DNA from: Halorhodospira neutriphila
GTDB lineage: Bacteria > Pseudomonadota > Gammaproteobacteria > Nitrococcales > Halorhodospiraceae
NCBI RefSeq assembly: GCF_016584055.1
Contig: NZ_NRSH01000004.1
Location: forward strand, 1-43,395
Direction: 5' to 3'
Length of the DNA stretch: 43,395 bases
Below are positions 4,916 to 37,900 of this stretch, in pieces. The first letter of the stretch is position 1. Every line of letters starts with the position of its first letter. The position numbers were made by a program, and so were the translations under genes. Under the pieces are notes generated by a model. It worked only from the letters and a program-made list of their open reading frames with translations, had not been told where the DNA came from and did no database searches.

Positions 4916-4928
4916 CACCGCGGCCGCG

Positions 4929-6272: not shown

Positions 6273-6281
6273 GATCGCCCT

Positions 6282-8003: not shown

Positions 8004-8570
8004 ATGACGATCAAGCCCGACCGCTGGATCCGGCGCATGGCCGAGGAGCACCGCATGATCGAGCCCTTCGCGCCGGAGCAGGTCCGCGAGGCCGAGGGGC
8101 AGCGGGTGATCTCCTACGGCACCTCGAGCTACGGCTACGACGTGCGCTGCGCCAACGAGTTCAAGCTCTTCACCAACATCAACTCGGCGGTGGTCGACCC
8201 CAAGAACTTCGACGCCAACAGCTTCTTCGACGTCCAGGCGGACGTGTGCATCATCCCGCCCAACTCCTTCGCCCTGGCCTACACCCACGAGTACCTGCGC
8301 ATCCCGCGCAACGTGCTCACCATCTGCGTGGGCAAGTCCACCTACGCCCGCTGCGGGATCATCGTCAACGTCACCCCGCTCGAGCCGGAGTGGGAGGGGC
8401 ACGTCACCCTGGAGTTCTCCAACACCACCCCGCTGCCGGCGAAGATCTACGCCTACGAGGGGGTGGCGCAGATGCTCTTCTTCGAGTCGGACGAGGCCTG
8501 CGCGACCTCCTACGCCGACCGCGGCGGCAAGTACATGGGCCAGGCCGGGGTGACGCTGCCGCGCTCCTGA
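8004..8570 (+). CDS. dcd: dCTP deaminase
   Basis: Deaminates dCTP to dUTP, the route to dUMP and hence substrate for thymidylate synthase. At 188 residues it is full length. Visible motifs are Ser-Ser-Tyr-Gly-Tyr-Asp-Val-Arg near the N-terminus, Gly-Lys-Ser-Thr-Tyr-Ala-Arg-Cys-Gly, and the catalytic-Glu region [13 protein letters not shown], then Gly-Gly-Lys-Tyr around the C-terminus. It is the last gene of the plus-strand run, 13 bp after lgt. Its stop lies 9 bp from the stop of the convergent kinase gene, leaving almost no room for a separate terminator. Confidence 0.95.
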
Positions 8571-8579
8571 CAGGGCCGC

Positions 8580-12968
<4,389 letters not shown>

Positions 12969-19393: not shown

Positions 19394-20744
<1,351 letters not shown>

Positions 20745-20960
20745 ATGACGGGGCAAGAACGTCTCGCCCTGAGGTTCCGGGCCGCATTCACGTCGGCGTG
20801 CATTCGGCGACCGCAGCAGCGGCACCGGAACTCGGATTGGCTGCGGCGGCAGGCCTTCTCGACCCAGCCGCAGTGCGGCTCGCGCACGGCGGCCTCCTTG
20901 CCGGCGTTCACCGCCGTGGGCAGCAGGTCGGTGCGGTGGATGGCCGTGGCCGTCATGCGG
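20745..20960 (-). pseudogene. TnpB (IS200/IS605/IS607-type) C-terminal remnant
   Basis: Only the C-terminal zinc-ribbon and last RuvC motif survive. The readable stretch is Cys-Gly-Trp-Val-Glu-Lys-Ala, then Arg-Arg-Ser-Gln-Ser-Glu-Phe-Arg-Cys-Arg-Cys-Cys-Gly, then Ala-Asp-Val-Asn-Ala-Ala-Arg-Asn, which holds the final RuvC Asp. The first Cys-x-x-Cys pair is damaged, the N-terminal DNA-binding and RuvC-I/II parts are missing, and the frame has no stop of its own. TnpB is an RNA-guided nuclease in intact elements; this copy cannot be active. It abuts the truncated IS1595-type gene. Confidence 0.75.
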
Positions 20961-21488
20961 TCAGCGTCCGGAATCATCGTCGCCCGCGTGCTCCGGGCAC
21001 GCGGGTAGGTCACCATCCACGTCGGTTTCGGCCATCTCCACGACCCTGCGCAGCACCGGATCGTCGCTGGCCATCATCCGGCGGATCCGGTGCGACAGGT
21101 GCCAGGCGGTCCGGTACTGGAGGCCGAGCCGGAAGCCGAGCTGCCGGGCCGAGATGCCCTGGGATGAGCACGCCATCAGGAACATCGCGGTCAGCCAGGT
21201 CCGGACCGGCAGATGAGAGGCCGCCATCGGCGTCCCGGCGCGCGCCGAGGTGGCCCGGCCGCAGTCGCGGCAGTGGAACAGCATCTTGCGCCCCGGCAGT
21301 CGGCGTGCGTTGCCGACGGAGCCGCACCAGCGGCAGACCGGGCCCTCCGGCCAGCGCGCCGACAGGAACAACGCCTCAGCATGCGCCTCATCCGGCACCA
21401 GTTCCAGGAAGCCTTGCAGGGTCAGAGGGTCATGCACCATGCCCACAAGATAGAGGGCATCATCATCAGAAAGCAATAGATCCGGCAA
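20961..21488 (-). pseudogene. IS1595-type transposase, truncated before the catalytic domain
   Basis: The 175-residue frame keeps the N-terminal zinc ribbon of IS1595/ISXO2-like transposases (Cys-Arg-Trp-Cys-Gly and Cys-Arg-Asp-Cys-Gly around residues 52-75) and the helix-turn-helix part. Conserved phrases are Leu-Pro-Val-Arg-Thr-Trp-Leu, Ser-Ser-Gln-Gly-Ile-Ser-Ala-Arg-Gln-Leu and Thr-Ala-Trp-His-Leu-Ser-His-Arg-Ile-Arg. Homology stops where the catalytic Asp-Glu-Thr-Tyr segment should begin: the frame reads Ala-Glu-Thr-Asp-Val-Asp-Gly-Asp and soon meets a stop. About half of the usual protein is gone, replaced by TnpB-derived DNA. Confidence 0.8.
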
Positions 21489-22372: not shown

Positions 22373-25300
22373 CTACGGCCGCAGCCGCACCGTCCACGCC
22401 TCCAGATCCGCCCGGTCGAGCTCCGCGCGCCCGAGCAGCGTAAGCAGCTCCTCCTGCCGCGGCTGGCCGAAGACGACGCGGTAGGTGGCGAGCTGGTGCT
22501 TGAGGCGCTCGAAGGCGGCGACCTCCCGGGTGTAGGGCAGGGTCGGCACCCGGCGCTGGATCCGGTAGGGCCCCGGCGCGATCCAGTACGGCACGAGGTC
22601 GTCTGCACCCTCCTCCTGCGCCTCTTGATCGGCGATCTCGAAGAGCAGCGCCCACAGGTCTTTGCCCAGTACCCAGTGGGCCCGGGCCCGGTCAGCGCAG
22701 CGCGCCGCCACGTTCCGGCGCACGGCGTGCCCCTTGTAGCGGTGGATGCGCCCCTCGCGCTGCTCCAGGTCCACCGGGTTGCCGGGCAGGTTCCAGTGCA
22801 CCAGCCGGTGGCACCAGGGGTGGAAGTCGAGCCCCTCCTGGCCGACGGAGGTACTGGTGAGCACGAAGGGCCGGAAGGGGCTGTTGAAGGCAGCGCGAAC
22901 CTCGTCCTGGCTCAGCCGCCCCTCCTCGGTCCGCTGATCGCCGAAGCGCTGGGCGAAGACCGTGCGGATCCGCAGCTCGGGCCAGGCCAAATCGCCGCTG
23001 CCCTCGCGCTCCGGGAACTGGGCGTGCACGCGCGAGGGGCGCGGCTCGATGCGCGCGGCGAGCTCCTCGACACAGCTGCGGGCTACCTCGTCCGCCGAGA
23101 GGCCCTCGGCCCAGCCGTGCTGCTCCCAGGCCAGGTGCCAGGCCTCATCCAGCACCGCCTGCAGGTTGCCGGCCACGGCGTACTGCATCACGCGGCGCCA
23201 GTAGGCGCCCCCGTCCTCGCCATGGCCGCGGCCGTAGAGCTGGTGCAGCAGCCCGATCACCGGGGGCCGGTTGAACAGGCGCCAGAACGCCATGGCGAGC
23301 CGGGCCGACAGGGCGCGTCGGGTCGGCTCGTCCAGCCCGGGAACCCCCGGCTCAGGATCGCCCTGCTCGGGATCGTACGCTCCGGCACCGGCCAGGGTCC
23401 GGGCGGCCACGACGCCCGGCGCGCCGAGCGCCATATCCGTGATCAGGTCGACCAGGCCCTGGGGCTGGCGGCCCAGGCCTGCGGGGTCCAGATCCATCAG
23501 GTCCCTGAGGTAGTCGCCGAAGCTCTCCGACTGGGGCCGCCCCCCGTCGCCGGCATCCCAGGATCGCCAATCGGCCAGGAACGCCCTCAGCCCCGGATCG
23601 AGCAGCAAAGGCGCCATGTACGCCCAGCGCGCGTCCTCGGAGGCCTGCGGATCGCCCTGCTCCGCCACCTCCGCCAGCAGGCCGGTCACTTGCTCGCGGG
23701 CCCACGCCCGCGCATCCCGGTCTGCCGGCGCCGAGAGCGGGTGCACCCGGTCCGCCAGGCTGGTGCACGGCAGCAGCAGCAACAGCAGGCGGTGGCGGGA
23801 GCGGGTCGCCTCCTGGGTCGGGAGCTGCAGGAGCTGCCTCGGCAGATCGTCGTAGCCCACGCTCTGCCCGGCGAGCATCCGGCGCTCGGCCTCGTAGCTG
23901 AGCACGGCGCTAACCACATCCGGGACGAAGTTCCAGGCCGAGAAGAGCAGCGTCTTCGTCCGCTCCTCCTGCCCCTCGTAGGGCCCGTCCAGCGGCCAGT
24001 ACGGCAGCGAGGGCGGCATCCACAGGAGTCTCCAGCCCCCCGTATCCAGCTCCTCCCGGACCATCTCCCGCAGCTTGGCGTGCCCCGGATCCACCCGATC
24101 CCACGCTCGCAGGGCCTGCCGGTCGAGGAAGGCATCCGTATATTGGTCAAGGACCGCCAGGAGCCGATCCGGCTGCCGCTCCCGGAGCTCGCGGACCTGC
24201 TCGTTGACCTGGTAGCCCTGCATGAAGTGCGGCAGGTAGGGCGCCGACTTCCAGAAGGTCAGCGGGTCCCGCGCCCCGGCGGCGCGGAACCAGGCCTCGG
24301 CGGCGAGGTACTGGCGGACGTCCACGGGCTGGACCTCCAGCTGCCCGCCGCCCGACGGCGCCACCATGGCATCCTGGTCAGCGCTGCCCGCCACCCGCTC
24401 GGTGCGCGCCATGATCGCTCTCAGGTGCCCCTCGACCGCCTCCCGGGCGCTCGGCACGTTGTGCCCCTGCCCGGCCGCGGCGCGCCGTAGCTCACTGTTG
24501 AACCGCGACAAGGCCTGCTGGAGGGCGGCCACGCGCTGCTCGTCGTAGTCGAGCAGGAAGCGGGTCGTGGCCAGGAAGTCGGCGTAGTGGTCCTCGCCCT
24601 CCAGCTCCGGATCCCGGGTGTAGAGCTTGTAGGGCGTGGCCGAGAGGAGCAGGGTGCGCACCGGCTTACCGGACTCTGTGCGCGTCTGCAGGAGCCGCCG
24701 GGCCAGCACCGTCGACGGCGCCTGATCCCCCTCGTCCTGGTTCACCAGGTCCTTGAAGCGCTGGAACTCGTCGAGGATGACCAGGTCCGGCTCCAGGGCC
24801 TCGATACAGACCTCCGCCAGGCGGTAGCGGAGCTCGCCGATGAGGCGGTTGCGGGCCTGCCGCGCCTCCGGGGGGTACGCCTCCAGGGGCTGCAAGAACC
24901 AGCGCTCGATGATCGCCTCCAGCTCGCCCATGAGCGCCGCCTCCCCGGCGACACGCTCCTGGAAGCGCCTCGCGATCTCGGGCTCCAGCGGCAGCGGCTC
25001 TGCCAGCGTCCCGCGCCAGCGCTGCGGATCCTGGACCCAGCCCTGGAGCAAGTTCATCAGCCCCTCCCGCTGCTCGATTAGGCGGTCGAGCAGCTGGAAG
25101 AGGAGCCTGCGCTCCGCCGCCTTGCCCTCGGCGTGGCCCATGTTGAAGGAGGTGCCGGGCGTGAAGCTGATGAAGTTGACCTTGCGGGCCGAGAGTCCCT
25201 CCCCCTGGGCCCTGCCTGCCAGCTCGGTGGCGAGCAGGGTCAGCCGCGTGGTGGTGGCCTGGGCGTCCTCCGTGTCCCCGGTGACCTGGAGCTTGGGGAG

Positions 25301-25555
25301 GTTGGAGCGGCCGATGTTCTGGTTGCTGCAGATGTAGAGGACGTCGATGCGGTCCGGCCGATCCCACAGGTGATCCAGCGCCCGGGCGATGATGCCGCGG
25401 GCGACCAGCGTCTTGCCCAGGCCCACCTCGTCGGCGACGAGGAAACGGTGCGTGCTGTCCGGCGCCGTGAACAGCCGGTGGAAGGCGTGCTCCACGGTGC
25501 GGCGCTGGAAGGACTTGAGCGGCCTGATGATGGCTTCCGGATCCGGACGGCTCAT
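22373..25555 (-). CDS. SF2/SNF2-like helicase of putative defence operon
   Basis: A 1060-residue DNA helicase or translocase. Motif I is Asp-Glu-Val-Gly-Leu-Gly-Lys-Thr (42-49), motif II is Leu-Asp-Glu-Phe-Gln-Arg-Phe (261-267), and motif III is Leu-Ser-Ala-Thr-Pro (304-308). The C-terminal helicase lobe (about 895-945) carries Gly-Gln-Glu-Gly-Leu-Asp-Phe and Gln-Arg-Glu-Gly-Arg-Ile-His-Arg. Between the lobes lies a long insert of roughly 500 residues without a recognisable fold. Large SF2 helicases with a Gln-x-x-Gly-Arg motif and a nearby PLD nuclease are common in phage-defence loci. It is third in the operon; its ATG overlaps the PLD gene stop (ATGA at 25552-25555). A DISARM DrmD-like role is conceivable, but DrmA, DrmB and the methylase are absent. 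Confidence 0.85.
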   Translation of the reverse strand: MSRPDPEAIIRPLKSFQRRTVEHAFHRLFTAPDSTHRFLVADEVGLGKTLVARGIIARALDHLWDRPDRIDVLYICSNQNIGRSNLPKLQVTGDTEDAQATTTRLTLLATELAGRAQGEGLSARKVNFISFTPGTSFNMGHAEGKAAERRLLFQLLDRLIEQREGLMNLLQGWVQDPQRWRGTLAEPLPLEPEIARRFQERVAGEAALMGELEAIIERWFLQPLEAYPPEARQARNRLIGELRYRLAEVCIEALEPDLVILDEFQRFKDLVNQDEGDQAPSTVLARRLLQTRTESGKPVRTLLLSATPYKLYTRDPELEGEDHYADFLATTRFLLDYDEQRVAALQQALSRFNSELRRAAAGQGHNVPSAREAVEGHLRAIMARTERVAGSADQDAMVAPSGGGQLEVQPVDVRQYLAAEAWFRAAGARDPLTFWKSAPYLPHFMQGYQVNEQVRELRERQPDRLLAVLDQYTDAFLDRQALRAWDRVDPGHAKLREMVREELDTGGWRLLWMPPSLPYWPLDGPYEGQEERTKTLLFSAWNFVPDVVSAVLSYEAERRMLAGQSVGYDDLPRQLLQLPTQEATRSRHRLLLLLLPCTSLADRVHPLSAPADRDARAWAREQVTGLLAEVAEQGDPQASEDARWAYMAPLLLDPGLRAFLADWRSWDAGDGGRPQSESFGDYLRDLMDLDPAGLGRQPQGLVDLITDMALGAPGVVAARTLAGAGAYDPEQGDPEPGVPGLDEPTRRALSARLAMAFWRLFNRPPVIGLLHQLYGRGHGEDGGAYWRRVMQYAVAGNLQAVLDEAWHLAWEQHGWAEGLSADEVARSCVEELAARIEPRPSRVHAQFPEREGSGDLAWPELRIRTVFAQRFGDQRTEEGRLSQDEVRAAFNSPFRPFVLTSTSVGQEGLDFHPWCHRLVHWNLPGNPVDLEQREGRIHRYKGHAVRRNVAARCADRARAHWVLGKDLWALLFEIADQEAQEEGADDLVPYWIAPGPYRIQRRVPTLPYTREVAAFERLKHQLATYRVVFGQPRQEELLTLLGRAELDRADLEAWTVRLRP

Positions 25556-27372
25556 CGCTGGCTCTCCTCCTGCAGCGCGCCATCCACCGCCTGCCAGATG
25601 GCGCGGAGCTGCTCCGGCACCACCTCGCGGCCCTCCGCGTCCGCCATCAGGTCGTCCATCACCCGGCGGACGGTCTCGAGGCGCTCCGGCTCCCGGGCGG
25701 CCGCCCGCAGCAGATCCTCCAGCAGGGTCTCGGCCTCGAGGCGCTCGCCCCAGCCGGCGCTATCCGGGTCCGCCGGGCGCTCCAGGGCCCAGTCGGCGAC
25801 GTCCTCCAGGCCGCCCAGCAGGGCGCGTAGGAAGGCCAGGAAGCGCTCCGGCGAGTCGATCACCGTGCGCAGGATGCGCTGCATGCGCGCCTCGGGCAGC
25901 CCCTGCGCCGGCAGCTTGGCCACCAGGGTCACCGGCTCGAGCTCCTCCTCTCCCTCCAGCCAGCGCAGGCGGAAGGCGACGAAGGCCGTGAGCTGCTGCA
26001 TGGACAGCCCCCAGGCCGGCTCCTCGGGCCAGGTGCGGGCCTGCTCGGCCGGCAGCGTCACGGGCCAGACGTCGATGGCTACGCCTTCCCGCTCCGGCAG
26101 CTGCCCCGCCAGCCGCCAGCGCCACACCGCCTCGCCGGCCTCGCAGCGGACCGCCAGATCGCGCTCCAGCAGGTCGTCCCGTGCCGCCTCGAGCTCGCGC
26201 CGGGCCGCGGCCGCCTCGTCCTCGGCCTCGGGCCGCTGCGAGGCCTGGTAAGGGGTGCAGAGCCGCTGGAAGCCGGCGAGGAAGCGGTCGATACCGACCC
26301 CGCGCTCGGAATCGGCCGAGCCGGCGGCGCCGCTGAGCTCGGCCATGACCTCCACGTTGCGGCCGCTGAAGGCGGCACGCGTGAGGTTGGCGGAGCCGAT
26401 GAGCCAGCTCGCCCGCCCGCCACGCTCGGCGGCGATGAGCTTGGCGTGGAGCCCGGCCGAGCGGCCGACCGTCCCGTCGTCCGCCTCCGCCAGGGCCGCC
26501 TCCTGGAGGACCTGGACGTCCTCCCAATGCGCCAGGGTGCCCTCGGGCAGCGCATCCAGGGCCTCGTCGCGGCCGATCAGGGCCAGCGAGCCGGCCCCGC
26601 TCGCCGCCAGGGTGTCGAGGCCGCGCCGGTCCACGAACGGCGCCACGGCGAGCACCCGGTCAGCCTCGGTGACCGGCCGCCACGGCGCCCCGCGCGGGCC
26701 CCCGAGGCCCAGGACGTGGAAGTCGATGGCGCCATCAAAACCCTCCGGCGCCGGGAAGCGGGTGCGGCCCAGCTCCTCGGCGAGGCTCGCCAGGTCCTCC
26801 GTCAGCGGGCGCGCGAGCGGCTGGACCGCCAGCCCCGGCAGACCGCGGACCAGCGCGGCGAGGGGCTCCGAACCCGGCTCGGCCTCCGCACCCGGCTCGG
26901 CCTCCGCACCCGGCTCGGCCTCGCTGACCAGGGCGACGTCCCAGGAGCGGTCGAAGGTGAGGTTGCGGGAGGCGACGGCGACGCGCAGCAGGACCCGGCC
27001 GTCCTGCTCCCCGGTAAAGCGCGCCACCCACACCTTGGGGTGGAAGACGCCCTCGCCGGGAGCGCGGACCGGGTGGACGCTGGCCTCCAGGGCGGCGTAG
27101 AGCTCGCGCTGGACCCGTGGCAGGGCGATGCCCGAGGCGTCGACGAAGACCTGCACCCGGCCGGAGGCCTCGCGCAGCGCCTCGAGGAGCAGCAGCGGGT
27201 CCTCCAGGAGCTCCTCCACACCCCGATCGGACTGCGCCAGCACCGCCAGCGGCAGCGCCAGGACCACCTCCAGGTCCAAGCTGTAGCTGGTCAGCACCGT
27301 GCGGTCCAGGGTGTAGCCGGCCGGCGGACGTAGGATCTCCGTCGCTACCTGGCGGGCGTCGGGCGACAGCAT
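25552..27372 (-). CDS. Phospholipase D-like nuclease of putative defence operon
   Basis: A 606-residue protein with two HKD active-site motifs: His111-x-Lys113 with Asn137 and Asp141 (Ser-Arg-Asn-Leu-Thr-Phe-Asp), and His309-x-Lys311 with Asn329 and Glu341 (Gly-Ser-Ala-Asn-Leu-Thr). Both halves look intact, so one chain can form a full PLD active site, as in helicase-linked PLD nucleases. A low-complexity Glu-Ala-Glu-Pro-Gly-Ala repeat (about 151-168) sits in between. The C-terminal half (about 370-606) is helical and unassigned. The ATG at 27372 overlaps the DUF6361 stop (TGATG); the frame upstream of it is a shadow. The likely role is DNA cleavage together with the helicase. Confidence 0.85.
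   Translation of the reverse strand: MLSPDARQVATEILRPPAGYTLDRTVLTSYSLDLEVVLALPLAVLAQSDRGVEELLEDPLLLLEALREASGRVQVFVDASGIALPRVQRELYAALEASVHPVRAPGEGVFHPKVWVARFTGEQDGRVLLRVAVASRNLTFDRSWDVALVSEAEPGAEAEPGAEAEPGSEPLAALVRGLPGLAVQPLARPLTEDLASLAEELGRTRFPAPEGFDGAIDFHVLGLGGPRGAPWRPVTEADRVLAVAPFVDRRGLDTLAASGAGSLALIGRDEALDALPEGTLAHWEDVQVLQEAALAEADDGTVGRSAGLHAKLIAAERGGRASWLIGSANLTRAAFSGRNVEVMAELSGAAGSADSERGVGIDRFLAGFQRLCTPYQASQRPEAEDEAAAARRELEAARDDLLERDLAVRCEAGEAVWRWRLAGQLPEREGVAIDVWPVTLPAEQARTWPEEPAWGLSMQQLTAFVAFRLRWLEGEEELEPVTLVAKLPAQGLPEARMQRILRTVIDSPERFLAFLRALLGGLEDVADWALERPADPDSAGWGERLEAETLLEDLLRAAAREPERLETVRRVMDDLMADAEGREVVPEQLRAIWQAVDGALQEESQR
26873..26926. repeat. 18-bp tandem repeat inside the PLD nuclease gene
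   Basis: Two exact 18-bp units (26873-26890 and 26891-26908) and a third partly diverged unit (26909-26926) encode the Glu-Ala-Glu-Pro-Gly-Ala repeat. Multiples of 18 keep the frame, so copy number could vary without breaking the gene. Confidence 0.8.
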
Positions 27373-28598
27373 CAGGCCGCCAGCCCCTCGTGCAGGTCCA
27401 CCAGCAGGCGGCGGACATTGGGCCAGCGGAAGTCGAGCCGGCCGACGCCGGCGCCGCCCCGCCACTGATCCAGGCGGTTGGCATTGACGACGCGGGCGCG
27501 GGCACCCTTCAGCGCCCGCTCACGCTGGGCCACGAGGTCGCGGAGCGGCCCGCTGTCCGCGACCGCCGCCGCGCCGTGGCGGTTGAGCCCCTCGGACCAG
27601 GCGGCGACGAAGCGCTTGAGCGGCTCCTTGAACGCCGCCCCGTGCCGGGCGCCCAGCTGCCACAGCGCCTCCGGATCGAAGGGGTCTTCCCGCTCCTCCG
27701 CCTCCGCCCAGCGCGCCAGCGCCTCGCGGTAACGCTCGATGTGCCCGGCGTCGACCCCTTGCGGGTCGCCGTGGCGCTCCCGGCGGAGTTCGGCGAGATA
27801 GAGGTTGTAGAGCAGCGGCGCGCCCTCCATGTGCAGGGAGAAGCGCCGGGCCATCGCCACCAGCTCGCGCAGCGATCCGGGCGCCTGCCCGACCTCGGGG
27901 GCCTCCCACAGCCACCGCGCATCGCCCAGCGCCGTGGAGCCCTCGCGCACCAGGTGGGCCAGCAGGCTGCCCGGGACCGCGGACTCCATACGGTCGCGCA
28001 GGAACCCGGCCTCCTCGGCGGTGAGCGCGAAGGTCGCCGTCTCCAGGAGCCCCTCCGGAGGCCCCGGCAGCTGCGGATGCCAGGTCCGCTCCGGTGCCTC
28101 TAGCTCGCCGGCGTCGTCCGGGCGGGCCGAGCGGAGCCCCGCGGCGAGGCGCTTGAAGTGCCGGTGGTACCACCCCTGGCTCTGGCGCGGGCCGAAAAGG
28201 CCCCAGCGCACCAGGGCGCTCCAGTACGCCTGGCTCGGCAGCCGCGACAGCCGCTCGCGCGCCACCGCGCCGATGACGCCCTCCTCCTCGCCGCCGCTGA
28301 GGAGCGCCTCGATGAGCCGGATCTCCTCCGCCCGCGCCTCAGCAGCGATGTCCTGGACTTGCCGATACCGCGCCTCAAGGCGCCGATAGAGCCAGGGGAT
28401 GAAGAGCACGTAGCGCAGGCGGGTGTGCAGCGTGGAGGTGCCCGGGAACAGCGTGTCCGAGAAGAAGTCCCGGACCGCCCCGAGCCCGAGCTCGTCGATG
28501 GTGCCCTGCTCCTCGAAGAGGTCGAGGACGCGGCGGACGTTGTCGCGGTCCGAGGCGGTGAGGTCGAGCCAGGTGAGGGAGGCGGGGGTAGCGGTCAT
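27372..28598 (-). CDS. DUF6361 family protein, first gene of putative defence operon
   Basis: A 408-residue soluble protein that I assign to DUF6361 from its N-terminus (Leu-Thr-Trp-Leu-Asp, then Arg-Val-Leu-Asp-Leu-Phe) and the Phe-Phe-Ser-Asp-x-Leu-Phe-Pro-Gly-Thr-Ser-Thr-Leu-His-Thr-Arg-Leu-Arg-Tyr segment (about 45-63). No catalytic motif is visible. It is mostly helical, rich in Arg, Trp and Leu. Function is unknown; the family co-occurs with PLD and helicase genes, so a target-recognition or adaptor role is an inference. The start at 28598 has an AAGGA ribosome site. It shares a 228-bp divergent control region with the MrcB-like gene. Confidence 0.75.
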   Translation of the reverse strand: MTATPASLTWLDLTASDRDNVRRVLDLFEEQGTIDELGLGAVRDFFSDTLFPGTSTLHTRLRYVLFIPWLYRRLEARYRQVQDIAAEARAEEIRLIEALLSGGEEEGVIGAVARERLSRLPSQAYWSALVRWGLFGPRQSQGWYHRHFKRLAAGLRSARPDDAGELEAPERTWHPQLPGPPEGLLETATFALTAEEAGFLRDRMESAVPGSLLAHLVREGSTALGDARWLWEAPEVGQAPGSLRELVAMARRFSLHMEGAPLLYNLYLAELRRERHGDPQGVDAGHIERYREALARWAEAEEREDPFDPEALWQLGARHGAAFKEPLKRFVAAWSEGLNRHGAAAVADSGPLRDLVAQRERALKGARARVVNANRLDQWRGGAGVGRLDFRWPNVRRLLVDLHEGLAA

Positions 28599-28826: not shown

Positions 28827-30692
28827 ATGGCCACGATGCCGAACTCTTCTGCCAGCCTGCAAGAACTCTTCGCTACCATCTTGGCCCGTTATGCCGACGC
28901 CCGCCGGGCGAGTCAGCCTTTCGGCAAGGAACATACCCTCTGGCAGACTTTCGAGCAGCTCCAGCAGCTCCTCGAGACACATCCGGTCATCCAGCGGCAT
29001 CCTTCACTCCGGGTCACCTGGTCCGTGGGCCGTGGCAACTGGGCGCGGGTACCGTGGCTCACTTTCCTCGATGAGCGGGAGACGAACACCACGCAACACG
29101 GCGTCTACGTCGTCTACCTCTTCCGCGAGGACATGACCGGGGTCTATCTGACTTTCAATCAGGGAGTGACCGATCTCCAGCGCCAGCACGGGACCCCGGA
29201 GGCCCGCTCAGTACTACGAAGCCGAGCGAAGCAGCTGGCGGGACTGCTCCCAGCCTCCGCCTCAGGCTTCCGGACGGAGGGAGCCATCGACCTGCGCACC
29301 CGGGGCAATCTCGGTAGAGCCTACGAACACTCCACAATTGCCTACCGCCTCTACGAGGTAGGCGAGCTACCGGAAGACGACACCCTCTTCGCCGACTTAG
29401 AAGCGCTCCTGGAAGCTTACGAGGTCTACATACACTCGGACCTGCGCCGCACCATCGTTGGCGATCCGGCGGCGATCCACTCCTCGTCGGGAGACACAGC
29501 TCTGGAAGCCGAACCACCGCCGAGCAGCACGTTCGAGCTAGCCACCGGCTTCCAGGAGCTCCGCGACAAAATCCAGGCCGAGGGCTACGTCTACCCCGAC
29601 TGGCAGCTGGCGCAGTACGTGACGGCCCTGCGCACCAAGCCGTTCGTCATCCTCGCGGGCATCACCGGCACCGGCAAGTCCAAGCTGCCGAGCCTGGTGG
29701 CAGAGCACACCGGCGGCAGCGCCGAGCTCATCCCGGTCCGCCCAGACTGGACCGACAGCGCCGACGTCCTCGGCTACACCGACTTGCAGGGCACCTTCCG
29801 GCCGGGGGCGCTACTGGAGCTCGCCCACCGTGCCATGGGGGCCGACGACGTCCACGAGGTCGCGATCCTCGACGAGATGAACCTCGCCCGCGTTGAGCAC
29901 TACTTCGCGGAGGTCCTCAGCCGTATCGAGGATCGCCGCCCCGCCGCCGGGGGCGGCTACGCCAGCACTCCGTTGCTGCAGGGCACGCTCCCGGCGGGCG
30001 ATGCCGAGTGGCAGCAGGTCCACCTGCCGTCCAACCTGGCCCTGGTGGGCACAGTGAACATGGACGAGAGCGCGCACGGCTTCTCCCGCAAGGTCTTGGA
30101 CCGCGCCTTCACCCTCGAGCTCTCCGAGGTGGCGCTCGAGCGCTGGGCGCCTCAGAGCCGGGACGAAGCCCCGCGCCCCCAGCCGTGGCCGGTCAGCGCC
30201 TGGCAGCCACGGGCCGCCCGCCTCGCCGAGCTGGATGGCCTCACCCCGGCGGAGCGGGACCGGATCCAGGAGGCCATCGACGAGCTGGTCGCGCTTAACC
30301 GCATCCTCACCCAGGCCCAGCTCCAGGTCGGTTACCGCACCCGCGATGAGGTCGCGCTCTTCGTCCTCCACGCCGAGGTGCTCCGCTCCTTCTTCCGCAC
30401 CGAGACAGACGAGCCGATCGATCCACTCGACCTGGCCCTGCAGATGAAGATCCTCCCGCGCATCGTGGGCGGCAGCACCAGCGTCCAGCGCGTCCTGCTC
30501 GGTATCCTCGGCTGGGCCTACCGGGGCACCGAGTGGACCGAGGAGGACGAGGCCCAAGACCTCCTCGACCATTGGGCCCAGACCGGCCGGCCCAGCCGGG
30601 TCCCCGATGCCCGCTACCCAGGGCTAGCAGCACGGACGTGTCTGATGTGGGACCGGCTGCTGGCGGAAGGCTTTACGTCGTACTGGCTCTGA
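28827..30692 (+). CDS. MrcB/McrB-type AAA+ NTPase
   Basis: A 621-residue protein with an N-terminal MrcB-like domain (about 10-205), which in this family recognises target DNA, often modified. An AAA+ domain of the McrB clade follows (about 265-520). Walker A is Gly-Ile-Thr-Gly-Thr-Gly-Lys-Ser (278-285), Walker B is Val-Ala-Ile-Leu-Asp-Glu-Met-Asn (345-352), the McrB signature-like Gly-Thr-Val-Asn-Met-Asp-Glu is at 408-414, and Arg426 in Leu-Asp-Arg-Ala-Phe is the likely arginine finger. McrB proteins use GTP; which nucleotide this one uses cannot be told. The first 700 bp look poorer in GC than the rest of the window, a sign of transfer. The DUF2357 nuclease gene follows after 3 bp. Confidence 0.88.
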   Translation: MATMPNSSASLQELFATILARYADARRASQPFGKEHTLWQTFEQLQQLLETHPVIQRHPSLRVTWSVGRGNWARVPWLTFLDERETNTTQHGVYVVYLFREDMTGVYLTFNQGVTDLQRQHGTPEARSVLRSRAKQLAGLLPASASGFRTEGAIDLRTRGNLGRAYEHSTIAYRLYEVGELPEDDTLFADLEALLEAYEVYIHSDLRRTIVGDPAAIHSSSGDTALEAEPPPSSTFELATGFQELRDKIQAEGYVYPDWQLAQYVTALRTKPFVILAGITGTGKSKLPSLVAEHTGGSAELIPVRPDWTDSADVLGYTDLQGTFRPGALLELAHRAMGADDVHEVAILDEMNLARVEHYFAEVLSRIEDRRPAAGGGYASTPLLQGTLPAGDAEWQQVHLPSNLALVGTVNMDESAHGFSRKVLDRAFTLELSEVALERWAPQSRDEAPRPQPWPVSAWQPRAARLAELDGLTPAERDRIQEAIDELVALNRILTQAQLQVGYRTRDEVALFVLHAEVLRSFFRTETDEPIDPLDLALQMKILPRIVGGSTSVQRVLLGILGWAYRGTEWTEEDEAQDLLDHWAQTGRPSRVPDARYPGLAARTCLMWDRLLAEGFTSYWL

Positions 30693-30695
30693 GCC

Positions 30696-33236
30696 GTGGG
30701 TAGACTGTTCCGCATCGAGACGGATCGGGTAATACTGATCTGGAGCGGCCCCATGCCGGAGAACGCCGTAGCGGCCTCGGGGACGCTGCGGCTCTGGCCC
30801 CAGCGGCGGGACATCACCCTCGGGCCGGGTACAGCGCGCGCCGGCGTATCCGACGCCGTGGCGCAGAACCCGGCGGAGACAGCGGGCCCACCCCTGTTCG
30901 AGGAGACGACCTATGACTTGTGGCTCAGCAGCCATGACGGACGGCGCGTTGAGCTCCGCCACCGGGATCCCACGCTGCTCGCCCATCTCCATACTGCTCC
31001 AGGCCAGGCGCAGGTCTACGGCCACATCCACTTTGGTGGCCAGGTCGGGCTGAGCCGCTTTAGCGTGCAGATTGACGGGCAGCCGGAGCTCGACTTCGAG
31101 ATCGAGGTCTTTCCGGCCAAGATGGCCTACCGCGCGGACTACGCAGCCATGCGCGAGGAGGTCCACGCCCTCGCCGCCGGGCTAGCCTTGGAGTACCTGC
31201 GCGCCACCCATCACGGCAGCGCCACGACAAGCCAGCACCGCAGCGGCCGGCTGGAGTGGCTCGCCCTGCTCCGACACCAGATCGGCGAGCTGGAGCAGGC
31301 CCTGAACTACGTGGCACAGCACCCCATCCGCAGCCTGCGGCGTCAGGAACGCCCGGTCCGCGCCGAGGCCGTTCGCCGGCCCGACGCCCGTGTACGGCGG
31401 GCCCTACGTACCGGTCGTGGCCGAGGTGGCTGGGCGGGACAAGTCCAGGGAGGCCTACCGGTCCGGCAGCGCCTGCCGGAGCAGCGCCCCGTGCCATCAC
31501 TGGACACCCCGGAGCACCGGTGGCTGGCGCAGCAATTAAGGCGGGTACGCCAACAACTGGCGCACATCGCTCAGCAGGAGCGCCGCCGCCAGCGCCAGAG
31601 TCGCCGCGCAGGATCGGACGGGGGCTCGGAGCGCGACCGTCAGGCCCTTGTCGAACTCCAGGCATTGGAGCGCCGAATCGCCAACCTGGAGCGCCTGGAG
31701 CCACTCGCCGAGGCCAGCGCTCCGCCACCTCCCGGATTCGCCTCGCTTCGGCTCCAAGGGGCCCCGGGCTACAAGGAGGCCTACCAGGCCCTGCTGACCC
31801 TGCGCCGAGGCATCAGCATCCGCGGCGGGCCCATGGACCTTTCGGTCAAGGACATCCACCAGCTCTACGAGTACTGGTGCTTTTTGGCCCTGCTGCAGAC
31901 GGTCGCGGAGGTGCTGGAGGAGCCGATCCCGGCCGACCAGCTCCTGACCATCCAGGCCGACGGCCTGCGGGTACGCCTGGCGCGGGGACGAACCCATACA
32001 GTCCCTTTCGACCTCCCCGGAGAGCGTCGCCTCGAGGTCGTTTACAATCCGAAATTCCAGGAAGGAGGTGCTTTCCTCCCCCAGCAGCCCGATTTTGCCC
32101 TGACCCTGAAAGATCCGGCCTGGCCCACGGTGCGGCTGGTCCTGGACGCCAAGTACCGCGTCGACGACGACACCGAGACCCACCGCCGCTTCGGCGTGGC
32201 CAGCCCGCCTGCCGATGCCATTAACGTCCTCCACCGCTACCGCGACGCCATCCTGGAGCAGGAGAAGTCGAGCGCCAGTAGCGCAACAGCCTCGGGCCGT
32301 CCGGCGACCCAGCGAACGGTAATCGAGGGGACAGCGCTCTATCCTCTGGACGCCGAGGCCGCGGCGGACTTCGACCGGACGCGCCTATGGCAGGGACTGC
32401 AGCGCCTCGGCATCGGCGCCCTGCCCTTCCTGCCCGGCTCGACTCATTGGGTTCGGCAGTGGTTGCGCCACGTGCTCCAGCGCTCCGGGTGGCGCACCGC
32501 GGAGGCTGTGGTTCCCCACAGCGCCGAGCTTCAGCGATACGCCTGGCACCGGGCCGCGGCGGAAGTGGTCCTGATCGCGGTCCTGCGCCCGCGGGCGGAG
32601 CGGGCGCACCTCGACTGGATCGCCCGGGCGCAGCGCTACTACACGCCGTGGACGCCCAGCCAGCCCCGCCAGCATCAGGCCAAGATCGTGGCGTTCTACA
32701 CGCCCGCCTCGGCTCGCCCCGGGGACGAACCGGGGGCCGTGACACACTGGGCGGAAGTGACGGATATCGAGGTCCTGCCCCGCGAGCAGATCGACACGCC
32801 TTGGCCAGCCCAGCGCGGCACCGAGGAGCTGCAGGTGCTCTACCACCTGGGACCGCTGCAAGCGTTGGAGTCGCCCATCCTCAACCGACAAAACGGCCGT
32901 GGGCAGCGTTTCTCCTCGAACCGCTGGTCATCGCGGTTGGCTCTCCAGCGGGCTCGCACCGTCACTGAGCTCCTCCTGGAATCCGCCTCGGAATGGGCCC
33001 TCTACGAGGCCCTCCGGGCGCGGGGCGCCGAGCCAACGCTCCGGGCCCTGCCGCCACGGGATCCCACTGCCGCGGGCCAGCGCGGCCGGGCCGCCTTCCA
33101 GATCGGCGGACGCCGGGCCCACTACCTAGACGGCGAGCGCTTCGAGGTGGTGGGCACCAACGGCACCCGGTGGGAGCTGCCCCGTGAGGCAACGGCGGAG
33201 GCACTAGTCAGGCCCCTGGACGACGAACCGCCGTGA
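30696..33236 (+). CDS. DUF2357 PD-(D/E)XK nuclease, McrC-like partner
   Basis: An 846-residue protein from a GTG start. The N-terminal DUF2357 region (about 65-330) includes an Arg/Gln-rich helical stretch (270-335) that may be a coiled coil. It is followed by a PD-(D/E)XK nuclease core with Pro-Asp-Phe (Asp466) and Leu-Asp-Ala-Lys-Tyr-Arg (Asp484, Lys486), then the family-typical Ile-Asn-Val-Leu-His-Arg-Tyr-Arg-Asp-Ala-Ile. About 300 further residues follow. They include Lys-Ile-Val-Ala-Phe-Tyr-Thr-Pro and His-Trp-Ala-Glu-Val-Thr (663-689), which could be a PUA-like domain, and a block ending in Arg-Phe-Ser-Ser-Asn-Arg-Trp. It is co-transcribed with the MrcB NTPase and probably cleaves DNA when that motor signals. 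Confidence 0.85.
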   Translation: MGRLFRIETDRVILIWSGPMPENAVAASGTLRLWPQRRDITLGPGTARAGVSDAVAQNPAETAGPPLFEETTYDLWLSSHDGRRVELRHRDPTLLAHLHTAPGQAQVYGHIHFGGQVGLSRFSVQIDGQPELDFEIEVFPAKMAYRADYAAMREEVHALAAGLALEYLRATHHGSATTSQHRSGRLEWLALLRHQIGELEQALNYVAQHPIRSLRRQERPVRAEAVRRPDARVRRALRTGRGRGGWAGQVQGGLPVRQRLPEQRPVPSLDTPEHRWLAQQLRRVRQQLAHIAQQERRRQRQSRRAGSDGGSERDRQALVELQALERRIANLERLEPLAEASAPPPPGFASLRLQGAPGYKEAYQALLTLRRGISIRGGPMDLSVKDIHQLYEYWCFLALLQTVAEVLEEPIPADQLLTIQADGLRVRLARGRTHTVPFDLPGERRLEVVYNPKFQEGGAFLPQQPDFALTLKDPAWPTVRLVLDAKYRVDDDTETHRRFGVASPPADAINVLHRYRDAILEQEKSSASSATASGRPATQRTVIEGTALYPLDAEAAADFDRTRLWQGLQRLGIGALPFLPGSTHWVRQWLRHVLQRSGWRTAEAVVPHSAELQRYAWHRAAAEVVLIAVLRPRAERAHLDWIARAQRYYTPWTPSQPRQHQAKIVAFYTPASARPGDEPGAVTHWAEVTDIEVLPREQIDTPWPAQRGTEELQVLYHLGPLQALESPILNRQNGRGQRFSSNRWSSRLALQRARTVTELLLESASEWALYEALRARGAEPTLRALPPRDPTAAGQRGRAAFQIGGRRAHYLDGERFEVVGTNGTRWELPREATAEALVRPLDDEPP

Positions 33237-33296: not shown

Positions 33297-35777
33297 TCAG
33301 TAGCTCAGGACAGCCACCAAGACCCCCACCACCTTCAAGTCCTCGAGCGCCTCTTCCTCCAGCACGATATCCTCGTACCCCGCCTCCAGCGTGTCGCAAG
33401 CCAGGGTGATCCGCCCGTGCCGCCACCCGGTCTCGGGGTCGTCCACCTTCTCGCTCCAGTAGACCTTCACGGTCAGCGCACCGCCGTGGTCCGGATCCTG
33501 GATATCGCGGTGGTGCACCAGCACCACCCGGCCGTTGCGCGTGCCGCCCGGATTGGCCTGGAACAGGCAGTAGGCACCGTTTGGGATCCGGCGGCTCATC
33601 GACTCGCCCTCCACCCGGGCGACGAAGTAGCCGGGCTTGGCCTCGAAGGGCTCCGGCAGCACCGCCCAGGTCTCGAACGACGACAGGCCCGCGCCGCCCT
33701 CGAGACCGGCGGCGAGCTCGTAGCCCGCGAAGCGGCCCGCCGCGGCCGGCAGGTCGACGAAGGGGACGGCCCGATCCTCCGGGCCCAGCTCCGCCCGCGG
33801 CCTCAGCCGCACGATCCCCGGCTCCTCCGCCGAGGGCTGCGGCTCCGCCGCTGCCACCTCCGCCCGGGCCTCGGCTCCCGAGGCCAGGGACTGCGCCTCT
33901 GCCCCGTCGCCCTGGGACGCCATCGCCCGGGCCACCTGCTCCCTGAAGTAGTCCTGCGTCTCCGGGTCCGTGCAGTAGATGAGGCACCCCTTCAGGCCGC
34001 GGCTCATCAGGGTCCGGTAGGTGTTCTTGATGATGGCGTCCGCGCGCGCCTCGGCCTCCGCCGGGGCCTCCTTGCGCGCCGTCTTGTAGCCGGCGAGCGA
34101 ACGGTCCGTCCGGGCACGCGCATCGGGCTGGGTGATCACCCGGCCGTTGCGGACGACCAGGTCCGGGCCGATGATGACGCCCACCAGGTCGAGCTCCAGG
34201 CCCTGGACGGTGTGGATGCAGCCGACCTGGTCCACGGAGCCCGCCTTCTCCAGGTAGAGGGGGCCGTCATCGGCCAGGTTCCACTGCATGGCGAAGCCCT
34301 GCGGGAGGACGATGTCGCAGGCCTCTCGATCCTGCTTGCTGGCCCAGTCCCAGCAGTAGCCGGCCACCAGGCGGGCGCGCTGCCCGGCGGCATCGTGGGC
34401 GCGGATGCGATCCCGGAGCTCATTGGGGTCGTCGACAACCTCCAGGTGGTAGTCGAGGCCAGTCAGGTCCTCCTGGGCCGTGTCCCGGATCTGGAGGGCA
34501 CGGTCCAGCCAGGCCAGGTAGCCGTCCGAGCCGTTGCAGCGGAACTGGGACTGGAGCACCGCCCGGTGGACGGTGGCGCCCTGCTCGGCGGCCCAATGCT
34601 CGATCTCATCGATCGAGCCGATATCCTGCCAGGTGACCTGCTGCGCCGGATCGATGAAGAAGACGCTGGCCCGGGCGGCGCGGATCATCTCCTTGACCTG
34701 GTTCTCGCCGGCCGCGCCCGCGTAGCGGTCCCTCTCCACGATGCGGTGGGCCTCGTCGATGATCAGGGTATCGAGCCCATCGCGGCGGCTGCCCACGAAG
34801 CCGCCGGTGCCGCGGAACAGGCTGTCGATGCGCTTGACCTGGAGCGTCCCCTTGAGCCGCGCCTTGTAGACCTCCCGCGGGGCGCGGTTGCGGGTGACGA
34901 ACTGCGCCCCATGCCCCCGCTGGATCAGCTCGACGAGCAGGTTCATGGCGACCACGGACTTGCCGGTCCCCGGCCCGCCCTCGACGATCAGCACCTGCTT
35001 GCCGTTGCGCCGGCCCAGCTCGGCCACCTCCAGCGCCGCCTCGTAGGTGACCTTCTGGTCGTCGATCATGACGAACTCGCGGTTGCCTCGCATGAGCCGC
35101 GCCAGGGTGTCCGCGAGCTCGCGCGAGGGGCGGATCCGGCTCTGCTCGAGGCGGTTGAGGACCTGGTGCTGGTCCCCTTGGCGGACGTAGCGCTCGATAT
35201 AGCCCTGCAGGTCACCGACCTGGCTACGCAGGAAGGCGGGCGCCCCGGCCAGGTGCTCGCGGTAGCGCGGGTCCTGGAGGGTCGGATCCTTGCAGTTGTG
35301 GAGATAGGCGCACGGGCGCAGCCGGATGGGCGTCTCCTGGACGGCAGCGTTGAAGTCCTCGAGCAGGGCCGCGTAGCTCCAGGCCTGGTAGGAGGGGTGC
35401 GGGACCTCGCGCCGGGCGCCGCCGAGGAAGGTCCGGACGATGCCGTCCTTGTCGGTGGGCTCGACCTCCTGCCACTGCTTGAGCTCGACGATGACGCAGC
35501 TGGCCTGGTCCTGCTCGTCGTACCCGGAGAGGATGAAGTCGATGCGCTTGGCGGTCTGCGGGATGCGGTACTCGATGGCGACGCTGGCATCCGCCGGGAT
35601 CGAGGGCGGCTCGAGGACGTTCTTCATGTAGGTGAGCGACTGCTGGAAGGCGTCGATCTCCCGCGGGGAGACGCCGCCGATTCCGCTCGCCTGGAGGGCC
35701 TCGAGGACCCGCTCCTCGATGACGTTCCGCCCGACATCCTCGAGGAACTGCCCTTTGTCCGCCTGGTAGACCCGCAT
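33297..35777 (-). CDS. DUF2075 nuclease-helicase fused to a LexA/S24 peptidase domain
   Basis: An 826-residue multidomain protein. (a) Residues about 60-160 look like a PD-(D/E)XK nuclease: Arg-Ile-Asp80-Phe-Ile and Val-Glu98-Leu-Lys100. (b) The DUF2075 helicase region (about 230-615) has Walker A Gly-Gly-Pro-Gly-Thr-Gly-Lys-Ser (267-274), Asp-Glu-Ala-His (341-344), Gln-Ser-Gln-Phe-Arg-Cys (409-414), His-Thr-Val-Gln-Gly-Leu-Glu (522-528) and Lys-Asn-Thr-Tyr-Arg-Thr-Leu (584-590). (c) After an acidic linker (620-655) comes an S24 peptidase domain (about 670-826) with Ser726 in Gly-Glu-Ser-Met, Lys771 in Thr-Val-Lys-Val, and a candidate Ala680-Gly681 cut site. It converges on the DUF2357 gene. 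The ATG at 35777 was preferred to a TTG 12 bp upstream. Confidence 0.85.
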   Translation of the reverse strand: MRVYQADKGQFLEDVGRNVIEERVLEALQASGIGGVSPREIDAFQQSLTYMKNVLEPPSIPADASVAIEYRIPQTAKRIDFILSGYDEQDQASCVIVELKQWQEVEPTDKDGIVRTFLGGARREVPHPSYQAWSYAALLEDFNAAVQETPIRLRPCAYLHNCKDPTLQDPRYREHLAGAPAFLRSQVGDLQGYIERYVRQGDQHQVLNRLEQSRIRPSRELADTLARLMRGNREFVMIDDQKVTYEAALEVAELGRRNGKQVLIVEGGPGTGKSVVAMNLLVELIQRGHGAQFVTRNRAPREVYKARLKGTLQVKRIDSLFRGTGGFVGSRRDGLDTLIIDEAHRIVERDRYAGAAGENQVKEMIRAARASVFFIDPAQQVTWQDIGSIDEIEHWAAEQGATVHRAVLQSQFRCNGSDGYLAWLDRALQIRDTAQEDLTGLDYHLEVVDDPNELRDRIRAHDAAGQRARLVAGYCWDWASKQDREACDIVLPQGFAMQWNLADDGPLYLEKAGSVDQVGCIHTVQGLELDLVGVIIGPDLVVRNGRVITQPDARARTDRSLAGYKTARKEAPAEAEARADAIIKNTYRTLMSRGLKGCLIYCTDPETQDYFREQVARAMASQGDGAEAQSLASGAEARAEVAAAEPQPSAEEPGIVRLRPRAELGPEDRAVPFVDLPAAAGRFAGYELAAGLEGGAGLSSFETWAVLPEPFEAKPGYFVARVEGESMSRRIPNGAYCLFQANPGGTRNGRVVLVHHRDIQDPDHGGALTVKVYWSEKVDDPETGWRHGRITLACDTLEAGYEDIVLEEEALEDLKVVGVLVAVLSY

Positions 35778-35916
35778 TCCCGCGAGCAAAGCGCGGTTGG
35801 CAGCGCGCCGTCAAGCCTTGGGGAGGCCGCGAGGCAGCTCGGAGCCAGGGCCGAACCACAGCGCCCGCCGGGGCCCCGCTCGACCACGCATTTACCAGAC
35901 CCCCGGCAGCGGCTAT

Positions 35917-35933
35917 GGTCGACTACCTCGACC
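35917..35933. repeat. Short hairpin in the cyclase leader
   Basis: GGTCGA (35917-35922) pairs with TCGACC (35928-35933) around a 5-nt loop in the 215-bp divergent gap between the DUF2075 and cyclase genes. The rest of that gap shows no gene and no clear promoter. Confidence 0.4.
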
Positions 35934-35992
35934 GTGGGCGTAGCCGCCCTCGCCGGCACGCTACCCCGGCAACGCTGCCTGGAAGGACCCTG

Positions 35993-37900
35993 ATGCGCAT
36001 CCCCCGGCTCTCCCGCCCGCTGCTGCTGACCATCCTCGTCCCCATCGGGGGCGGGATCCTGATGCTCATGCTCGTGCTCATCGCCTTCGAGAGCGCGCGC
36101 GGCGTGGCCATCGAGGAGCAGGAGCGCAAGGCCGAGGAGATCGTCGAGCTCACGGCCAGCACCATCGAGGAGCTCTGGATCGCGCCGCGGCGGGAGGCCA
36201 TCGAGACCCTTGCGGATAGCCGCACCCTCGAGCGCCGGATCGAGGGGCAGGTCCCCTTCGACGCCCTCGCCCGGGAGTGGCGGGTCGCCGAGGACTTGCT
36301 CCGGGGCTACTTCTTCATCTACTACGGCCTCCGGGACGGGACGATCGAGTACTACCCGGACGGCGAGCTCCCGGAGGATTTCGACCCGCGGGGGCGCCCC
36401 TGGTACGAGGCCGGGATGAGCGCCGAGGGCGGGCCCGCCTGGACATCCCCGTACGAGGAGGCCATCACCGGCGAGACGGTGGTCAGCACCGCCGCGCCCA
36501 TCGACCAGGGCGGCGAGCGGATCGGGGTCATCTCGACGGATATCCAGTTCGACGGGCTCAAGGCCATCCTCGAGCACATCGAGCTGCCCACGGGCGGCTC
36601 GGTCTTCCTCGTGGACGAGTCGGGACGGCCCTTCATCGGCACCGACGCCGCCTACATCGGCCGGGACAGGCTCCCGCCGAGCGGCGAGGAGCTCTTCGTC
36701 GCCTCCAGCGAGCCGATGTCCAACGGGTGGCGCGCGAGTGTCACCATTCCCCGGCCGCACCTGGCGGAGTCCTTCGCCGACCTCCTGCAGCCGATCATGG
36801 TCGCCTCGGTCCTGATCCTCCTGATCGGCGGCGGGATCACCTCCCTGCTCGTAGGGCGCACCGCCTCGCGCGCCTACCGGCTCGCCGGCTACTTCCAGAG
36901 GACCCTGGAGCAGGACGCCCCGCTGCAGGAGGTCTTCCGCACGCGGGACGAGTTCTCACTGCTCAACGAGCGCTTCAACGAGGTCCTGGACCAGGCCCGG
37001 CGGACCGCGGAGCACAGGCTCGCCCAGGAGCGCGCCTTCCGCTTCCTCGTCGAGCAGGCCCCGGTCGGCTTCTTCAAGACCAACCGCCAGGGCGAGCTCC
37101 TCTATATCAACCCCCACTGCGCGTCCCTGCTCGGCTACACCCAGGACGAGGCGATGCGCGAGATCGTATCCGTGCGCGAGCTCTACGCCGACGGCACCGA
37201 CCGGGACCGGTTCCTCGAGGAGCTCCTCGCCCACGGCGAGGTCCGCAACCGCAAGATGCAGTTCCTCAAGCGGTGCGGCGAGACCTTCTGGATCTCCATG
37301 ACGGCCCGCCTGCGGGAGGACACGACCGCCGGCGGGGCCGGGGATCTCGAGCTCGAGGGGTTCCTGGTCGATGTCACAAAGGAGGTCGAGGAGCGGGAGT
37401 CCCTCGTCCAGATGGCGGAGCGCGACCCGCTTACCGGGGCGGGCAACCGGCGCGCCTTCGATACCGCGGCCGAGGCCGTCGCGGAGCGGGCCCACGCGAC
37501 GGGCCAGCAGGTCGCCCTCATCGTCTTCGATGTCGACCACTTCAAGGCGATCAACGACACCTACGGGCACGATGCCGGGGATGCCCTGCTCCGCCAGATC
37601 GCCGAGCTGGGCCGGTACAGGCTCCGGGAGGGGGACCTCTTCGCCCGCCTCGGCGGGGACGAGTTCGCCGTCCTCCTGCCGGGGACCAGCCACGAGGCCG
37701 CCACCCGCCTCGCCGAGCGCCTGCGCGCGGACGTGCGAGGCATGCCCTTGCCCGGTCCCGTGCCGGAGCCGCCTACCCTGAGCCTCGGCATTGCCGTGCG
37801 CGCCGGGGGCGAGGTGCAGATCCCCGCGCTCTTCAAGGCAGCCGATAGCGCCATGTACGAGGCCAAGCAGGCCGGCCGGGACCGGTGGTCCACCGGCTGA
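35993..37900 (+). CDS. Membrane diguanylate cyclase, dCache-PAS-GGDEF
   Basis: A 635-residue inner-membrane sensor. Transmembrane helix 1 (about 8-32) is followed by a periplasmic dCache domain (about 40-255, with Arg-Gly-Arg-Pro-Trp-Tyr typical of ligand-binding dCache). Transmembrane helix 2 (about 263-287), a linker, a PAS domain (about 345-460) and a GGDEF domain (about 475-635) come next. Gly-Gly-Asp-Glu-Phe is intact, and an inhibitory-site Arg-Glu-Gly-Asp stands five residues before it, so it should make c-di-GMP under product control. The ATG at 35993 has a GGAAGGA site 8 bp upstream; the frame further upstream is not needed. The ligand is unknown; dCache domains often bind amino acids or amines. 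Confidence 0.9.
   Translation: MRIPRLSRPLLLTILVPIGGGILMLMLVLIAFESARGVAIEEQERKAEEIVELTASTIEELWIAPRREAIETLADSRTLERRIEGQVPFDALAREWRVAEDLLRGYFFIYYGLRDGTIEYYPDGELPEDFDPRGRPWYEAGMSAEGGPAWTSPYEEAITGETVVSTAAPIDQGGERIGVISTDIQFDGLKAILEHIELPTGGSVFLVDESGRPFIGTDAAYIGRDRLPPSGEELFVASSEPMSNGWRASVTIPRPHLAESFADLLQPIMVASVLILLIGGGITSLLVGRTASRAYRLAGYFQRTLEQDAPLQEVFRTRDEFSLLNERFNEVLDQARRTAEHRLAQERAFRFLVEQAPVGFFKTNRQGELLYINPHCASLLGYTQDEAMREIVSVRELYADGTDRDRFLEELLAHGEVRNRKMQFLKRCGETFWISMTARLREDTTAGGAGDLELEGFLVDVTKEVEERESLVQMAERDPLTGAGNRRAFDTAAEAVAERAHATGQQVALIVFDVDHFKAINDTYGHDAGDALLRQIAELGRYRLREGDLFARLGGDEFAVLLPGTSHEAATRLAERLRADVRGMPLPGPVPEPPTLSLGIAVRAGGEVQIPALFKAADSAMYEAKQAGRDRWSTG

Follow-up and report, generated by a model that had tools for sequence, protein, structure and literature searches.

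The S24 peptidase tail at the C-terminus of a predicted nuclease-helicase of Halorhodospira neutriphila is a recurrent, conserved module of restriction and defence enzymes and is not private to this protein, which is the strongest new result of our analysis. The gene lies in a stretch of 43,395 nucleotides (contig NZ_NRSH01000004.1, positions 1 to 43,395), here called the window. Domains, intact motifs, a LexA-type fold, a conserved site and recurrent fusion come directly from the analysis; from them we infer cleavage, a RecA trigger and degradation, and the best reading is that of a self-cleaving tail that is probably triggered by RecA filaments and acts as built-in restriction alleviation. 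The gene has the following features:

33297..35777, minus strand: whole gene, PD-(D/E)XK nuclease - DUF2075/SLFN-g3 SF1 helicase - S24 tail, 826 aa, stop codon included.
35370..35777, minus strand: N-terminal PD-(D/E)XK (RecB-like) nuclease, residues ~1-136, with D80, E98-x-K100 and Q131-xxx-Y135 by motif.
33966..35000, minus strand: SLFN-g3/DUF2075 helicase, residues 260-604 (Pfam PF09848, E 6e-97; Walker A G267-S274, DEAH 341-344).
33816..33911, minus strand: low-complexity linker, residues ~623-654, with pLDDT < 40 and no conservation.
33300..33815, minus strand: C-terminal S24 tail, residues 655-826 (PF00717; AlphaFold pLDDT 86; structural matches to CI, LexA and UmuD).
33735..33740, minus strand: predicted self-cleavage site Ala680-Gly681 in L-P-A-A-A/G-R-F (slash at the cut), from conservation in tails.
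33600..33602, minus strand: catalytic Ser726 (G-E-S-M), invariant in 38/38 aligned tails.
33465..33467, minus strand: catalytic Lys771 (T-V-K-x-Y), invariant in 38/38 aligned tails.
33678..33710, minus strand: lineage-specific insertion between site and Ser, residues ~690-699, a gap in 74-87% of the tails aligned there.

The ATG at 35777 is the start and fits the N-terminus of homologues, and a long opposite-strand ORF (33417-35993, plus strand) was taken as an artefact of high G+C content. The initial annotation had described a DUF2075 protein with a PD-(D/E)XK-like N-terminus and an S24 C-terminus, and all three parts stand. PF09848 (the old DUF2075, now SLFN-g3_helicase) is matched over its full length (profile 1-354/354) with Walker A and B present. 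The N-terminal nuclease was assigned by motif, and none of the Pfam nuclease models matched this region; it looks intact, because 40 homologues (42-60% identity) conserve D80, E98-x-K100 and the RecB-type Q131-xxx-Y135 without or almost without exception. Peptidase_S24 is matched at residues 703-758 (E 1.4e-4) with 21.9 bits, slightly below the Pfam cut-off of 23.3 bits, and the tail scores 24.3 bits, above the cut-off, in the whole-genome Pfam scan.

The full-length AlphaFold model (pLDDT 81) contains a UvrD/RecD2/Schlafen-like helicase, which matches UvrD, SLFN11/14 and RecD2 and has 7zel as its best Foldseek match (E 1.5e-11). Folded alone, the tail (pTM 0.83) resembles CI, LexA and UmuD with Z 10.8-13.3, compared with Z ~6-7 for signal peptidases, and the agreement with the LexA family extends to the strand that precedes the site (LexA from 75 on aligns with the model from residue 16 on, Z ~12); as modelled, the tail is thus of the LexA/CI/UmuD type rather than a signal peptidase. 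LexA was absent from the structural matches of the full-length model and appeared only with the tail folded alone. Likewise, a single-sequence search against the PDB gave no direct match, and it was through the tail profile that LexA was found, as the sole sequence match, with AAG aligned on AAG and GESM on GMSM (GxSM on GxSM). Residues 680-700 have pLDDT < 50 in the full model, where the site lies in a flexible loop and its placement relative to S726 is of low confidence; in LexA itself, forms in which the bond lies near the dyad alternate with forms in which it is about 20 A away (PMC3834820).

Conservation was followed in 49 tails, 38 of them in an alignment and 11, from Verrucomicrobiota, held out of it; the tail sequences are related, so that the counts are not independent events. 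The residues at 680, 681, 726 and 771, read from the translation, are Ala, Gly, Ser and Lys as the initial annotation had it, and homologues without the Ser/Lys pair, which would have spoken against its reading, did not turn up: the pair is missing in 0/49 tails covering those positions. Among the aligned tails, position 680 is Ala in 35 and Cys in 3, position 681 is Gly in 37/38 by alignment columns, and Ala at 679 (P2) and Phe at 683 are each found in 36/38, whereas position 682 is nearly random. (Ala/Cys)-Gly is present in all but two of the 38, the exceptions being L015, in which the residue after AAA is Asp and a Gly displaced by an insertion was put by the aligner in the Gly column, and L089, which reads V-A-T. 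Cys at P1 occurs in the Bacteroidota nuclease-helicases L010, L013 and L051 and also in L197, L198, L200 and L201. All 11 held-out tails keep the site, Ser and Lys (the Lys identified by eye in sequences without the K-x-Y pattern), and P2 is Ala in 11/11. With Ser and Lys kept in 38/38, the site in 36/38 and all three in 11/11 held-out tails, between neighbours as variable as 682, the alignments argue for strong constraint on dyad and dipeptide even among distant relatives, and against chance.

The tail carries its Ser-Lys dyad in GxSM and xVK contexts and an Ala-Gly upstream of the Ser; an Ala-Gly or Cys-Gly scissile bond upstream of Ser is the definition of LexA endopeptidase-like proteins (PMC8565304). 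The distance from site to Ser is 35-38 residues in most tails and 35 in LexA; it is 41 in L002, 48 in L007-L009 and L141, and 46 in the window protein, a value counted correctly at the outset and now traced to the insertion after the site, which is common to a few relatives. In the control S24 proteins (LexA, UmuD and phage repressors encoded by the same genomes) Ser follows the site by 33-39 residues, and just 8/22 of them (by eye) have P2 Ala, against the near-uniform Ala of the tails. A proline and an aromatic residue are described for the LexA Omega zone (PMC12984324); at the corresponding position, as assigned by sequence alone, 34/36 tails have Pro and the window protein has Cys794, with the aromatic Y801 present.

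From GTDB genomes the scan recovered 148 relatives of the nuclease-helicase, and 80 were retained. Most are ~620 aa long and end where the helicase ends; these tailless homologues, which form the majority, demonstrate a core that is complete without a tail. The tailed minority comes from Gammaproteobacteria, Desulfobacterota-type genomes, Krumholzibacteriota, Verrucomicrobiota and Bacteroidota, and on the core tree the tail label needs six changes, one of which (L057) is artefactual and stems from a truncated contig. A member of a tailless clade, L022 from Patescibacteria, has in the same place (4970-5467, plus strand) a different LexA-like S24 domain with an APCG site (PF00717, E 1e-19), apparently an independent fusion.

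A gene for a MazG-like pyrophosphohydrolase (~109 aa) adjoins most homologues, often overlapping the start codon, as a conserved two-gene unit (seen at L007:7584-7919, at L016:7675-8001 and at some 58 further loci); upstream of the window gene there is no space for it. The idea that tail and MazG partner are mutually exclusive was rejected, as several tailed genes have both. A Nudix hydrolase gene directly precedes a SauUSI-like PLD-helicase-DUF3427 gene (L041, L049, L050, L056, L080 and others), and this unit often neighbours the nuclease-helicase.

When tail profiles were run on ~1,185 genomes of the four phyla where the tail occurs, matches were found in 7/398 genomes of the window's phylum, 15/345 of Bacteroidota (the phylum of L013), 5/247 of the phylum of L005 and 11/195 of Verrucomicrobiota (that of L006), a few of these being weak hits to ordinary HTH-S24 repressors; in Bacillota (the phylum of L042) the profile matched in 0/299 genomes. 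C-terminal fusions of this tail subtype involve eight or more kinds of restriction or defence protein: PD-(D/E)XK-DUF2075; GIY-YIG-DUF2075; SauUSI-like (PLD-ResIII-DUF3427; PADLOC mREase_IV E 3e-236); HsdR (the HsdR-like L130 and L131, and L197, whose residues 90-1181 match HsdR with E 8.5e-264 and precede the tail); an HsdS-type specificity subunit (Methylase_S, type I-like; L198:3873-5738, minus strand); type III Res (L089, L200); HNH (L199); and methyltransferase-HNH (L192). Two tailed genes lie together in L080, and in L192 a nuclease-helicase and the methyltransferase-HNH protein, both with S24 tails, are encoded side by side (4501-6927 and 8322-10619, minus strand). The tail tree broadly tracks architecture, with five changes as the minimum, so that each architecture seems to have acquired the tail rarely. 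No tail was found in phage records; it is present on one plasmid record (Halomonas) and one viral contig (L089).

Candidates for stand-alone S24 genes of this subtype mostly dissolved on inspection: in L137 a single in-frame TAA (5700-5712) parts a ResIII helicase from an S24 tail that is fused in the relative L145; in L136 (5808-6579, minus strand) S24-like sequence seems to be inserted close to the N-terminus of an HsdR gene, with apparent frameshifts, possibly as a pseudogene or an assembly error; and L122 represents the 3' portion of a helicase gene. A further candidate, L196, has 163 aa and lies near a contig end. In the open-licence literature we found no description of a fusion of this tail to restriction enzymes.

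The window gene lies in a defence island. On one side are ZacA, ZacB and ZacC (ZacABC, 22376-28598, minus strand), which are strong PADLOC matches, and an McrB-like (MrcB_N + AAA_5) and DUF2357-PDDEXK_7 pair (28827-33236, plus strand) that is a probable McrBC-like system; on the other side is a divergently transcribed GGDEF gene. A general association of tailed homologues with defence islands was not borne out, as none of ten ORFs sampled from the flanks of six other loci had a PADLOC hit, and a defence role therefore rests on the window, L080 and the types of enzyme involved. Elsewhere in the window, the ORF at 19397-21016 (minus strand) combines a DUF2069 membrane protein with a weak Cas12f1-like TNB match, and its start is probably mis-called.

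In the host assembly, which is 94.9% complete, a profile scan found no LexA and no other PF00717 protein, which makes the tail its sole S24 domain; other tail carriers mostly have further S24 proteins. The host has RecA (L148/L149, G000:C1:731-2629, plus strand), interrupted by ~366 residues that resemble an intein (C-F-S-Y-D at the start, H-N-Y-F-V-D-G-C-L-V-S-N at the end); RecA is what presumably triggers the S24 tail. No SOS box was found upstream of the gene, and near-matches in the window are no more frequent than in shuffles; a post-translational switch needs no SOS box.

Taken as a whole, we read the protein as a single-gene nuclease-helicase of restriction or defence type with a built-in off switch that responds to DNA damage, a reading in which we place a little less than even confidence. 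The enzyme would be whole in an unstressed cell; RecA filaments on single-stranded DNA, from a damaged or replicating chromosome, would bring the tail into a cleavable conformation in which Ser726 and Lys771 cut Ala680-Gly681, and the 1-680 nuclease-helicase, now with a new C-terminus ...P-A-A-A, would be removed by ClpXP, so that restriction alleviation would be encoded in cis. Such a cut would release the tail alone and leave both catalytic domains whole; it would neither split nor directly destroy a catalytic domain, because residues 1-680 equal the tailless members of the family. The LexA cleavage product, which ends in VAA, is reportedly a ClpXP substrate, and the ssrA tag ends in ...LAA; the new C-terminus resembles both. 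Given the P2 Ala kept in nearly all tails, the product of most members would usually end in (A/V/I/L)-A-A. The VAA-like end, the conserved P2 Ala and the attachment to restriction enzymes including a specificity subunit favour removal after DNA damage, for which the removal of HsdR by ClpXP in restriction alleviation is a precedent (PMC4231737). The tail hosts, HsdR-like, HsdS, type III Res, SauUSI-like, HNH and the GIY-YIG and PD-(D/E)XK helicases, also share a risk to self DNA. Against an off switch count the spacing of 46, which is outside the 33-39 of control S24 proteins, the tails with Cys at P1, whose products would end in ...AC and not in a classical ClpX C-motif, and the two tails (L015, L089) in which the site is broken.

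The steps of this reading differ in strength, and each has its rival. That the tail cleaves itself is the firmest and we consider it quite probable, because a domain maintained purely for dimerisation would not retain the dyad together with the scissile bond it acts on. The opposite, a tail that dimerises or acts as a peptidase on another protein and conserves the site for structure, would fit the loss of the dipeptide with retention of Ser and Lys in L015 and L089 and the undocked, low-confidence site in the AlphaFold model; since Ala/Cys-Gly stands at the LexA position in 47/49 tails, flanked by highly variable residues, we regard it as very improbable. With respect to the trigger, RecA dependence is likely by analogy with the family, and for a RecA filament as the actual trigger we would give an even chance. 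Cleavage might instead proceed without RecA, as constitutive maturation or in response to the protein's own helicase engaging DNA or to a phage factor; IrvR is a RecA-independent, self-cleaving LexA-like S24 protein (PMC7101444), the tethering of the tail to a single-strand DNA motor should make an internal trigger sterically possible, and the 46-48 spacing of this lineage could alter regulation. All other characterised S24 switches are stated to be RecA-dependent (PMC7101444), and RecA is present in the host, which leaves this course unlikely.

As to the fate of the product, degradation rather than activation has, given cleavage, about half the weight in our estimate. Activation by removal of the tail is the main rival to the off switch. 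UmuD is a non-repressor S24 protein that is activated by cleavage, and it sets a precedent. In that scheme the tail, possibly dimeric as in LexA or UmuD, would hold the enzyme inactive or oligomeric until a cut is set off by RecA filaments or by single strands that a phage generates, and the freed 1-680, equivalent to the tailless homologues that are most of the family, would attack phage DNA or kill the cell, much as nuclease proenzymes are activated by proteases in Hachiman and AVAST (PMC12799240). However, freeing an active nuclease makes little sense for the tail on an HsdS-type specificity subunit, P2 Ala conservation would have no role, and tailless homologues would need to be safe without a brake; we consider activation rather unlikely.

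Compared with LexA, UmuD and lambda CI, the protein shares the C-terminal S24 fold, the Ala/Cys-Gly site and the Ser-Lys dyad, and most tails share the LexA-like spacing and, as assigned by sequence, have a Pro/aromatic pair resembling that of the Omega zone (PMC12984324). It differs in that its N-terminus is a nuclease-helicase and not a DNA-binding repressor or polymerase subunit, and in its own longer spacing and the Cys794 in place of the Omega proline. We know of no self-cleaving tail in EcoKI, and the degron of HsdR is to our knowledge still unknown. The alleviation of EcoKI by ClpXP is similar in that post-translational removal of a restriction motor-nuclease protects host DNA (PMC4231737), and dissimilar in that the switch here would be fused in cis. 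Nhi and AbiO are likewise single-gene nuclease-helicases with a related helicase core, but the PADLOC models of Nhi and AbiO cover the helicase part only (residues 252-415 and 235-415), the Nhi match being partial and short of the whole model (198-331 of 470), and the review passages on Nhi do not mention an S24 tail (PMC12904381). Hachiman and AVAST nuclease-protease pairs and Canu also control a defence nuclease by site-specific cleavage (PMC12799240), using trypsin-like or caspase proteases on a pro-nuclease, where the present protein combines both in one chain, with a Ser-Lys S24 domain. Human SLFN11 and SLFN14 have a related helicase fold (VIA Z ~18) and differ in being without the PD-(D/E)XK nuclease plus S24 arrangement.

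It is an old question how bacteria keep restriction nucleases off their chromosomes when these are damaged and incompletely modified, and the reason why other restriction classes show no alleviation has been raised as an open one (PMC4231737). The tail may serve as a portable switch by which damage to the cell's own DNA turns such enzymes off (or on). We propose, tentatively and with some reserve, that a transferable self-cleaving S24 tail has spread among unrelated types I, III and IV enzymes and nuclease-helicases and gives them direct RecA-filament control and ClpXP marking; this would be a second type of SOS output, one that does not go through transcription. Should the tail function in the way that its residues suggest, a RecA-sensing off (or on) switch would be built into many restriction enzymes; these would join repressors and UmuD as RecA coprotease substrates of a new class, and the tail would provide a sequence signature by which damage-controlled defence systems could be found.
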